From positions 1-29,575 of the forward strand of contig JADFJB010000053.1 in NCBI GenBank assembly GCA_022566355.1: 29,575 bases of DNA. Direction: 5' to 3'. Shown here piece by piece: positions 2,281 to 13,576 of the stretch (the stretch's first letter is position 1; each line of letters starts with the position of its first letter). A program made the position numbers and the translations under genes. The notes under the pieces were generated by a model. That model did not search any database and had not been told where the DNA came from. It saw only the letters and a list, made by a program, of their open reading frames with translations. This DNA is from a candidate division KSB1 bacterium. GTDB lineage: Bacteria; Zhuqueibacterota; JdFR-76; DREG01.

Positions 2281-4470
2281 TTAATAAACTACCTCAAGTC
2301 CTACTTTAAAATGCCGACCCGGCATCGGCGCTCGTTCGACAATTTCAAATTTATTGTCAAATACATTGAATACAGACAAGAAAAAAGAAACCCGGGTCTT
2401 TTTAACATTTTGCCGTATTCTCATCGTAAAATCATCAACTGTATATGCCGGCATTTTTACAGTGTTTGCTGCCGTTATATACCTTTCACCAATCAACCGT
2501 TTGTGATAATCCAAAGCCGCAAATCCCAAATTTACGGATAAATTAATTTTCGAAATATGTTCGGGCCGATAGGTGAGCCGCTTATTATGTGTGGTTCGTG
2601 ATTTATTCTTATTAAGAGCGTTATCGATAACATGACTGATCTGCAATTTTATTTTATCATTCCAGGACAACCACGATGAACTAAACTCATAACCTTGCAA
2701 CAAAGCGGCCGTGTTAAAAGGACGAAACGTAGCGAACGAGCCCAGCTCCCAAATGATAAGATTTTCAACATGATTCCGAAAATAGGCTACTTCGATTTCC
2801 AGCCAACCCAAGATTGGAAATCCGGATTTTATTCCAACATCAAAATTGCGGCTCGTTTCCGGTAACAATTCCGGGTTACCGCTAACACGAAAATCCTGGT
2901 AAAACAGATCCGCAAAAGTAGGCGCTCGAAAGGACTTGCTCAAATTTGATTTTAACTGCATGAGCCAATTCGTTGTTCGGGAAAGCAGCATGCCAATCCC
3001 GGGACTGAAATAAGTATTTGTGCGATTAAATTCATCCCGCTTGAATTGAATCGTTTCAACCCGTATTGCAGGTGTGAGAACGAAGCCCAAACTGAATTCT
3101 GGATAGGCTAACTTGATTTGCGTGCCAAATCCCATTTCACCCTGCACATTGTCTGTTTTTGAGATTTTATTAGTTGCAGAGAGTAAATCTTCATTTTGAA
3201 AACTATCTTTCCTCAAGCTGGCATTAATGGTCAGTTTTGTTCCATTCTTCAATTCAAGGAATGCAAGTTTGGAATTAAGTTGGTTGCGGGAGCGATAGGG
3301 TGGCACGGTTCGAAAATGAATAGGTGCATCGCCGGGTGGCGCATGGTTAAATTCCGTTTTGTTGAAATGATTGGAAAATTGTAATCGCGCCGACCAATCA
3401 TGATGCCGGAATTGATACCTGGCCAGAATAATCGACTGAGAATTCTTTGCCTCTGCATAGGGTGTTAATGAGTAGATTAAGCCAGGAATACCCCGATTTG
3501 AATTTTGAACATTTAGCTGCAAAATAACCGCATGTTCACCCCGGGAATAGCGTATCTTTCCGAATATATTTCTTGATGATAAATCAGCATTAAGCCTTTC
3601 ATCACGAACGAGGGTTCCATCCGGAAGCCGATAAGAATAACTAAATTTCCCATTCTTACTGCTGCCGTAAACATTGACAAAATAATTAGCGTGTTTTAAA
3701 ACACCGGATATTGAAGAACGAAAATCAAATTTATCATAACTGCCCAGATCAGCTTTGACGCTCACTTCTTCCATGGCAGAAGTTTTGGAAATGATTTCGA
3801 TAACACCACCGATTGCGCCACCCACACGACTATGGCTCCCACTTTTCCAAATGTTTATCTTTTCAATATTGGATAATGGCACCTGTCCTAAATCAGCCTC
3901 GCCAAGCATAGGATCGTTTAAAGGGACATCATCAAGCAAAACCAATACCTGGTTAGCATTACTGCCTCGAATCCTTGCTAGCTTTCCTCCTGAACTGTTT
4001 TCAGTAATCTCGATCCCGCTGACTTGATTGATTAAATCAGCCACATTGTCGAACGGACTGTTGCGAATGTCTATTGTGGTAATTGTTTCAAAGAAAGCGC
4101 TCTCGTTGGGATTTTCAAAGACATCTTCAACAAGTACACCTGGAAGGTTGATGACTTTTTGACTCAATACAAATTCCACAGTTGTAACAAAATCCTTCTG
4201 CACAATGACTTGCTTTTCGACGTCAAAATAACCAATGAAAGAGACTCTCAGGGTGTATTCACCCGCGAAAAGGTTTTCAATGGTGAAATTTCCTTTATGG
4301 TTTGAAATCACACCCACACCGGTTCCAACCACAACTACGTTTGCCCCTGTTAAAGGCTGACCGGATGTTGTCTTAACCCTTCCCTGGATTTTAATGATGG
4401 ATTGTGCCCAGGCACTCTGAATTGTGCCAAGAAGTGCAAGAATAATCAGGATGTTAAAATAGTAACGCAA
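2281..4470 (-). CDS. TonB-dependent outer-membrane receptor, probable cobalamin receptor
   Basis: Outer-membrane beta-barrel of 729 aa. It has a signal peptide (1-22, ending SAWAQ), a carboxypeptidase-regulatory-like domain (about 30-110), a plug domain (about 118-230, including ARIRGSNANQVLVLLDDVPL and GGAIGGVIEI) and a long barrel ending in an aromatic residue (VVY). Such receptors use TonB/ExbBD energy to import rare nutrients. The substrate guess is vitamin B12 because a cobalamin riboswitch with a terminator lies upstream in the same orientation. The apparent start is TTG: an in-frame TAG lies four codons before it and the signal peptide begins exactly there, with a weak AGGT ribosome site about 8 bases upstream. 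Length is normal for BtuB-like or CirA-like receptors with the extra N-terminal domain. Confidence 0.88.
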   Translation of the reverse strand: MRYYFNILIILALLGTIQSAWAQSIIKIQGRVKTTSGQPLTGANVVVVGTGVGVISNHKGNFTIENLFAGEYTLRVSFIGYFDVEKQVIVQKDFVTTVEFVLSQKVINLPGVLVEDVFENPNESAFFETITTIDIRNSPFDNVADLINQVSGIEITENSSGGKLARIRGSNANQVLVLLDDVPLNDPMLGEADLGQVPLSNIEKINIWKSGSHSRVGGAIGGVIEIISKTSAMEEVSVKADLGSYDKFDFRSSISGVLKHANYFVNVYGSSKNGKFSYSYRLPDGTLVRDERLNADLSSRNIFGKIRYSRGEHAVILQLNVQNSNRGIPGLIYSLTPYAEAKNSQSIILARYQFRHHDWSARLQFSNHFNKTEFNHAPPGDAPIHFRTVPPYRSRNQLNSKLAFLELKNGTKLTINASLRKDSFQNEDLLSATNKISKTDNVQGEMGFGTQIKLAYPEFSLGFVLTPAIRVETIQFKRDEFNRTNTYFSPGIGMLLSRTTNWLMQLKSNLSKSFRAPTFADLFYQDFRVSGNPELLPETSRNFDVGIKSGFPILGWLEIEVAYFRNHVENLIIWELGSFATFRPFNTAALLQGYEFSSSWLSWNDKIKLQISHVIDNALNKNKSRTTHNKRLTYRPEHISKINLSVNLGFAALDYHKRLIGERYITAANTVKMPAYTVDDFTMRIRQNVKKTRVSFFLSVFNVFDNKFEIVERAPMPGRHFKVGLEVVY

Positions 4471-4776: not shown

Positions 4777-4790
4777 CTTCCCGCGAAGGA
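4777..4790 (-). promoter_or_regulatory. Short hairpin between aptamer and terminator
   Basis: On the minus strand CCTTC-GCGG-GAAGG forms a perfect 5-bp stem directly after the B12 box. A hairpin like this is often seen next to cobalamin aptamers and may belong to the expression platform or the kissing-loop region. Confidence 0.5.
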
Positions 4791-4794
4791 TTTT

Positions 4795-4958
4795 AATGGG
4801 CAGGTCTCCTGGCTTACAGCTTCAAATCTACTTGCCTTCCTTCCCATCCCGCCTGGGCGGGACAGTGGATTTATCAGGCATTCGTAGCTGATTACAGTTG
4901 CGGGGCAGCGCCGGATTCACACCGGCTTCCTTAGTCCAGTATCCTGGATTTACCCATT
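4795..4958 (-). ncRNA. Cobalamin (B12) riboswitch
   Basis: Read on the minus strand the conserved elements appear in order: AATGGG near the 5' end, GCCGGTGTGAATCCGGC, GCTGCCCCGCAACTGTAA, a variable arm with the hairpin TCCCGCCCAGGCGGGA, and the B12 box AAGCCAGGAGACCTGCC. These are the signature blocks of the adenosylcobalamin/cobalamin aptamer. When the vitamin is bound, such aptamers lower expression of downstream uptake genes. Here the downstream minus-strand genes are the TonB receptor and the beta-propeller protein, and an intrinsic terminator follows, so control by transcription termination is inferred. The exact 5' boundary is approximate. Confidence 0.95.
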
Positions 4959-5121
4959 TCTTATTTTAATTTAGAAACTTGAAGATAAATGTCAATACAA
5001 TTTTTTTGTTAAGTCACATGAATACAGTATTTAGCAAAAATCCAAATGACAAGTAACAAATCAGAAAGGTTGTTTTCCCATTGATTTTTGTTTTTTGATT
5101 TTTTGAGATTTATTGAATTTT

Positions 5122-9532: not shown

Positions 9533-9593
9533 TATAGAGATCACAAAGAAAAGGTATTTTAGTCTTTTATAACAAATTATTATGAGAGGTTTT

Positions 9594-10262
9594 ATGAGAA
9601 AATTATTTTTTAAAATCAGTTTGGTGTTTGTTTTGTTTGGATGGTTTTCAATTTGTTTGGCTCAGAACAATGAAAATACTAATCAATCACAAAATACATT
9701 GCCAAACTCTCCAAATGAAATCTGCCCTATCCTCATTGGCGAATCGGTCCCTAAATTAGAGCTGACAAAAATAGACGGCAGTTCGTTCAATTTAAATGCG
9801 GCAATCGAACAGAAGCCAACCATACTCATTTTTTACCGCGGCGGTTGGTGACCGTACTGCAACCTGCAGTTGGGTCAACTGCATAAGATCGAATCCCAGG
9901 TCATTGAATTGGGCTATCAAATCATTGCGATCAGTGCCGATCGCCCGGAGAAATTACAGGAAAGCCTTCAAAAGCATGATTTGAATTACACGCTCCTGTC
10001 TGATTCTAAAGCGATCAGCCCACAGGCTTTTGGTATCGCATATATACTTGATGACAAAACCCTCGAAAGATACAAGGGATTTAATATTGACATTGAAGTC
10101 GCTTCCGGCGAAACCCATCATATTTTGCCGGCTCCATCTGCTTTTGTTGTTGGGACAGATGGGATAATAAAGTTTTCATATACCAATCCGAATCATAGAA
10201 TAAGAATAGACCCTGATGTCCTTCTTGCCGCCGCCAAAGCTGCTTTAAAGAAGGATGATTAA
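9594..10262 (+). CDS. Secreted peroxiredoxin-like (AhpC/TSA) selenoprotein candidate, in-frame TGA = Sec
   Basis: Thioredoxin-fold protein of about 222 aa read through TGA at 9849-9851. A signal peptide (1-23, ending ICLAQ) indicates export. The frame before TGA ends ILIFYRGGW and the same frame after it continues PYCNLQLGQLHKIE, giving W-U-P-Y-C. In relatives this motif is FYRGGWCPYC, so the TGA replaces exactly the first catalytic Cys (residue 86); Cys89 remains. A SECIS-like hairpin follows. Downstream are VIELGYQIIAISADRPEKL and LPAPSAFVVGTDGIIKF, normal for this family. The expected role is peroxide or thiol-disulfide redox chemistry in the periplasm. The ATG at 9594 has AGAGG four bases before it; an ATG at 9582 is possible. 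Alternative: a nonsense pseudogene, but position, hairpin and intact flanks argue against it. Sec machinery genes are not in the window. Confidence 0.8.
9865..9883 (+). promoter_or_regulatory. Bacterial SECIS-like hairpin
   Basis: TGCAGTTG-GGT-CAACTGCA forms a perfect 8-bp stem with a G-rich apical loop. It starts 13 bases after the TGA, with the loop about 21 bases after it. Bacterial SECIS elements lie just downstream of the UGA inside the reading frame and need a G in the first loop positions; both hold here. This element is expected to bind SelB. Confidence 0.7.
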
Positions 10263-13060: not shown

Positions 13061-13426
13061 TTAGGCAATTTTTACCGTCCACTGTTTACAATAGCCTTTC
13101 GGATTAAATGGACCTTTCATGATCTGGCAACCACCGCAAGTGGCGCCTGCTTCCGGCACAGTCCAGAACTGGCAATTATCACACCGTTGCTCCGGAATGG
13201 GAGTACTTCCAACGTATTCAAAGGTTTTTCTCACAGTAATTTCTACATCTGTCAAGCCTGTCAAATCATTACAAGGATCCTCAACAGCCATTTTTACTTC
13301 CGGTTGAGCAGCCGGCGTCTCTGTTTCTGCTTGCTTTTCAGAGCTGCAACTTGATAACAGACCCGTCGCTCCAACCGCTCCGAAAAAAAACATCGAAAAC
13401 CGTTGTAGAAATTCTTCTCTTGTCAT
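13061..13426 (-). CDS. High-potential iron-sulfur protein (HiPIP)-like lipoprotein
   Basis: 121 aa. The N-terminus has a hydrophobic segment ending in a lipobox (LLSSC, Cys27), so it is probably a periplasmic lipoprotein; there is no twin-arginine motif. The C-terminus contains C-x2-C-x14-C-x12-C (Cys82, 85, 100, 113) with QFWTVP, CGGCQIM and GYCKQW, the spacing of HiPIPs, which hold one 4Fe-4S cluster and carry single electrons in the periplasm. One extra Cys (97) lies just before the third ligand. The start at 13426 is set by AAAGGAG about 8 bases upstream; an upstream in-frame ATG (13465) would break the signal peptide. It is convergent with the decayed gene. Confidence 0.8.
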   Translation of the reverse strand: MTREEFLQRFSMFFFGAVGATGLLSSCSSEKQAETETPAAQPEVKMAVEDPCNDLTGLTDVEITVRKTFEYVGSTPIPEQRCDNCQFWTVPEAGATCGGCQIMKGPFNPKGYCKQWTVKIA

Positions 13427-13576
13427 TTCATCTCTCCTTTTTCCTGTTTGCTTCACCGTTTTCAAATTTGATACAGGAAAAAGATAAACAGAATAAAAAT
13501 AATGTCCATTAATTTCGCACTAAAAAAGAAAGGAATGGAAAACATGATTTTAATACTAAAGCTTAAAGTTTCCTAA

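Follow-up and report, generated by a model that had tools for sequence, protein, structure and literature searches.

A very probable UxxC peroxiredoxin-like selenoprotein gene in a draft genome of candidate division KSB1

Peroxiredoxin-like (Prx-like) proteins with a pfam00578 domain and a UxxC motif are a listed subfamily of prokaryotic selenoproteins (PMC2398784 Table 2; PMC9312934; PMC13188914), and a UXXC Prx-like family appears already in PMC1088965. The gene at 9594-10262 (plus strand) of the 29,575-nucleotide stretch of DNA analysed here, the window, is very probably a functional bacterial selenoprotein gene in which UGA is read as selenocysteine (Sec), and its product adds to this known and already catalogued kind. 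The window is the entire contig C53 of a candidate division KSB1 draft genome of 4.62 Mb in 213 contigs, 98.5% complete. Among described selenoproteins, the Prx-like thiol:disulfide oxidoreductases (pfam00578 with UxxC or UxxU; 'Prx-like 1' of ocean metagenomes) have in common with the window protein the AhpC-TSA domain, Sec in the leading position of UxxC, numerous Cys homologues and a SECIS-like hairpin behind the UGA; that literature does not single out an FYRGGWUPYCN subgroup, and the likeness holds above the subgroup level. The cd02970/AhpC-TSA_2 selenoprotein is likewise a peroxiredoxin-like AhpC/TSA protein whose redox motif begins with Sec, but that motif is UxxS and not UxxC. The Sec-peroxiredoxins (TxxU, as in PrxU of Eubacterium acidaminophilum) share the peroxiredoxin fold and an active-site selenium, although in these the Sec is the peroxidatic residue whereas in the window protein it takes a Thr/Ser position and Cys89 the peroxidatic one; the NCBIfam PrxU model gives the window protein 14 bits against a cut-off of 270. 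The SelL-related redox protein (NCBIfam NF040769) has a related thioredoxin fold, and here the window protein reaches 49 bits with a cut-off of 120. The best matches in both sequence and fold are the Bcp/PrxQ peroxiredoxins (PDB 3hjp, 2cx3, 3drn), the motif of which is PxxxT/SxxC in contrast to RxxxUxxC in the window protein.

Under the standard code the gene is broken into two ORFs, 9582-9851 (89 aa) and 9870-10262 (130 aa), the split that the sequence-only reading had foreseen for routine gene callers and which is now corrected to one gene. With TGA translated as U, 9594-10262 yields a single protein of 222 aa with one internal stop, the TGA at 9849-9851, which is residue 86 in the context FYRGGW-U-PYCNLQ and has intact frames on both sides; Cys89, the second UxxC residue, is encoded at 9858-9860. 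The Pfam AhpC-TSA match (81.8 bits, cut-off 26) covers residues 48-194 with the TGA inside it, and bears out the proposal that a single in-frame TGA separates two stretches of one AhpC/TSA-like protein. The start at ATG 9594 is favoured because a Shine-Dalgarno-like GAGAGG, seen by inspection at 9584-9589 (plus strand), lies 4 nt upstream; translation could also begin at the in-frame ATG 9582. Residues 1-30 have low pLDDT and no regular structure in the AlphaFold2 model, and inspection places a putative signal peptide (MRKLFFKISLVFVLFGWFSICLA) at 9594-9662; the N-terminus looks like that of an exported protein.

The protein matches PF00578 and not PF13911 at the thresholds used, and the Prx-like UxxC subfamily is defined by an active-site UxxC within a pfam00578 domain (PMC2398784, PMC9312934). 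Its AlphaFold2 model (pLDDT 87.9) has a peroxiredoxin fold closest to Bcp/PrxQ and AhpE, and the top Foldseek matches are Bcp1, Bcp4 and BcpB (TM by target 0.78-0.88). In the profile alignment with Bcp/PrxQ, U86 occupies the Thr/Ser position of PxxxT/SxxC, C89 matches the peroxidatic Cys and R82 stands where the motif has Pro. The term peroxiredoxin-like, as first applied to this gene, is right for the fold but not for the active site, where the motif is RxxxUxxC and not PxxxTxxC/U, and with Sec86 away from the peroxidatic site a classical Sec-peroxiredoxin (TxxU) is excluded. Because Sec86 is at the Thr/Ser site and Cys89 at the peroxidatic site, UxxC selenylsulfide chemistry is favoured over that of the classical enzyme; Sec86 and Cys89 likely form a selenylsulfide couple, and they would alternate between the selenol/thiol and selenylsulfide forms outside the cytoplasm, the reduced targets perhaps being disulfides, sulfenic acids or peroxides. 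The identity of the substrate is much less certain than the selenoprotein reading.

That the TGA falls on the first Cys of the family motif is borne out by the homologues, Cys being present in 82 of the 83 other loci and TGA in the remaining one; across all 84 loci compared the residue-86 column thus holds 82 Cys and two TGA, most of the loci having been fetched with a peptide pattern holding WCPYC, which biases the sample toward Cys forms. Residues R82, G83, W85, C86, P87, C89 and N90 are invariant in a 46-row alignment in which U is written as C. The single TGA homologue, L019, comes from a genome of the same phylum but another family (G013), which encodes SelB; it has TGA at the same codon, in FYRGKW-U-PFCN, followed by a weaker hairpin (p 0.28 by synonymous recoding). 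In the tree the window protein clusters with a Cys-containing protein of G069, another genome of the phylum (58% identity, support 87), and L019 lies in a different clade (support 99), so that the Sec form occurs at two separate places in the family. The exact UGA-form pattern had no match in viral contigs, and plasmid homologues are distant, at 34% identity or less among the matches listed.

The SECIS-like hairpin is at 9865-9883 (plus strand) and consists of TGCAGTTG (9865-9872), the loop GGT (9873-9875; GGU in RNA) and CAACTGCA (9876-9883), a perfect 8-bp stem separated from the TGA by a spacer of 13 nt, exactly as originally described. It has G in the first loop positions of a stem-loop just downstream of the UGA. 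Dinucleotide shuffling of 42 nt gave a z of -3.25 (0/200 shuffles), a value for the whole minimum free energy (MFE) fold, the pairing of which is other than that of the reported hairpin. In synonymous recoding with the codon usage of the genome, p is about 0.013 for a G-loop hairpin of equal stability and 0.044 for a stem of equal length. The hairpin is less striking than at first sight because codons for the peptide QLGQL tend to form this palindrome; it does better than chance and a chance origin is unlikely, but it is partly a by-product of this peptide. The MFE fold of the free RNA has UGACC paired with GGUCA in place of the reported hairpin, which becomes the MFE fold once the UGA is excluded from pairing; a ribosome holding the UGA in its A site would keep it unpaired and so free the hairpin. 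At the SECIS position -9 kcal/mol is reached by 5 of 82 Cys homologues overall and by none of the 47 with a G+C below 50% there. A Cys-containing Phycisphaerae homologue (L020) has a hairpin, TGCAAT-TGGGGCA-GTTGCA, behind its Cys codon at the SECIS position, which either is what is left of a SECIS or follows from the peptide QLGQL.

Of 683 long ORFs in the 1.23 Mb of the genome examined, 185 terminate in TGA; the codon thus serves as a regular stop here, and a genome-wide code change is ruled out by this stop usage. Two more genes carry an in-frame TGA at a redox site. SelD, found in the genome with 375 bits (L100 1393-2451, minus strand of L100; C12, about 35945-36865), has TGA at its catalytic position, in TCG-U-AAKISP, where it aligns with the Cys of the AGCGCKISP motif of a solved SelD, and the hairpin CAGCCC-GGTC-GGGTTG behind it belongs to the MFE fold; SelD is probably the second selenoprotein of the genome. 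The probable third, about 456 aa long, is thioredoxin-like and exported and has TGA at 19393-19395 of L230 (C7, complement), in HIFASW-U-AGCR. Its FASW-U-AGC lines up with ASWCPYCR in a thioredoxin of solved structure, a strong hairpin (CGTGCC-CGGGT-GGCACG) stands behind the TGA, and the protein's C-terminal part is long and uncharacterised. Screening by codon usage has no power to reveal readthrough genes in this genome, and the thioredoxin-like gene was the one further convincing gene from a screen of about 2 Mb (44% of the genome) for TGA in an open frame with a G-loop hairpin and Cys. Strong hairpins without redox context, for example at L278 (plus, 6958), L302 (minus, 6998) and L262 (minus, 2262), were discounted as chance or terminator-like structures. 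The p values from synonymous recoding are 0.013 for the Prx-like gene, 0.053 for SelD and 0.016 for the thioredoxin-like gene, combined 0.0009, the third value being biased in that the gene was found partly through its own hairpin. A strong hairpin with Cys nearby occurred at TAG 0 times, at TAA 2 and at TGA 4; this TGA excess over the stop-codon controls is weak evidence alone and therefore homology carries the weight.

The search for selA, selB, selC and selD that the sequence-only reading had proposed gave a divided answer, SelD being present with its own TGA but SelA, SelB and tRNA-Sec not being found in the draft. The outcome that this reading had named as refuting for a complete genome, no selB or selC, is, to the letter, what this draft gave. 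SelA had no match in the 213-contig, 98.5% complete assembly; a profile search of the assembly gave nothing above cut-off for SelB, the SelB-like matches on C37 and C43 being read as EF-Tu and CysN; and no tRNA-Sec in the genome exceeded the Rfam cut-off, the tRNA-Sec-like matches of 35-40 bits overlapping, where checked, ordinary tRNAs for Ser, Leu, Tyr, Lys and Trp. An anticodon-arm motif that fits the selC of all 28 relatives had no exact match in the genome, and a looser motif gave no selC-like T arm among the matches listed. The genes that neighbour selA in relatives, for a membrane protein and an MFS transporter, are also missing from the assembly. Of 99 relatives, 64 have a SelB match above cut-off, both same-family genomes and three of the four same-order genomes among them; selA and selB are adjacent in the three family and order genomes examined, and both same-family genomes carry selA-selB. 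Of 49 genomes, 35 carry SelB, and the Rfam search finds selC in 28 of these; in roughly a fifth selC is thus either overlooked or really lacking. Where selC was found in the family and order mates it is on another contig than selAB, and therefore two assembly gaps may be needed.

Reading the gene as a selenoprotein gene rests on the pairing of Cys with TGA, the intact flanks, the TGA homologue L019 and the two more hairpin-backed TGAs at redox sites, with the SelA, SelB and tRNA-Sec missing from the draft standing against it. By the standard bacterial route SelA and SelD would make the Sec-tRNA-Sec for the UGA at 9849-9851, SelB would bind the hairpin just downstream and lead to Sec insertion, and the product would be a peroxiredoxin-like protein with the AhpC/TSA fold, exported and of the pfam00578 UxxC type; selA, selB and selC would then sit in genome regions that the 213-contig draft does not cover. 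Such an assembly gap, the weakest link of the account, is judged more likely than loss; the absence is put down to the draft assembly because same-family genomes have selA-selB, and a gap is preferred because three hairpin-backed TGA genes remain intact. A recent loss of selA, selB and selC in this lineage would leave these TGA genes as intact-looking relics that end at the stop, and it is in keeping with all three machinery genes being missing from so complete an assembly and with the Sec trait being commonly lost in bacteria (PMC1794560, PMC5029168). However relics are expected to decay fast, and the three TGA genes, SelD included, retain their hairpins and long intact frames on both sides while selA-selB is kept in both same-family genomes, so that loss seems unlikely.

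Still less probable is an isolated nonsense mutation or base-calling error from TGC or TGT to TGA in a Cys gene, since it must have struck precisely the redox Cys with a G-loop hairpin behind it, the same combination recurs in two further genes of the genome, and L019 of the same phylum has TGA at the same codon; that TGA is one base away from TGC or TGT and that close homologues, including the 58% identical protein of G069, carry Cys speaks for it. Decoding of the UGA without SelA, SelB and tRNA-Sec, for example by a suppressor tRNA inserting Cys or by an unrecognised Sec system, takes the canonical genes to be truly absent and would accommodate both their absence from the assembly and a SelD with its own TGA. 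It is scarcely credible, in that the hairpins are placed where SelB needs them, close relatives have the ordinary system, no TCA-anticodon tRNA occurs among the scanned loci (the rest of the genome being covered by a pattern scan only), and roughly one ordinary gene in four terminates in TGA, which makes general suppression unlikely. Next to no weight is likewise given to an undescribed route that would decode UGA in SelD and in the Prx-like and thioredoxin-like proteins, with SelA, SelB and tRNA-Sec of known type truly absent. The preferred reading, insertion of Sec by the standard machinery, adds an apparently exported UxxC peroxiredoxin-like selenoprotein and two probable sister selenoproteins in one genome, and suggests that the lack of selA, selB and selC in a nearly complete draft need not mean that the Sec trait is absent.

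Elsewhere on the window contig a cobalamin riboswitch (4782-4972, minus strand, 95.8 bits) lies upstream of a TonB-dependent receptor gene (2281-4470, minus strand), and the two look like an ordinary B12 uptake locus. A weak match to a high-potential iron-sulfur protein (26 bits, cut-off 22) is at 13061-13465 on the minus strand. From 20057 to 28680 genes for TelA, DUF4178, DUF2617, DUF350, spermine-synthase-like and ion-channel proteins follow in a run that looks like a conserved cassette.
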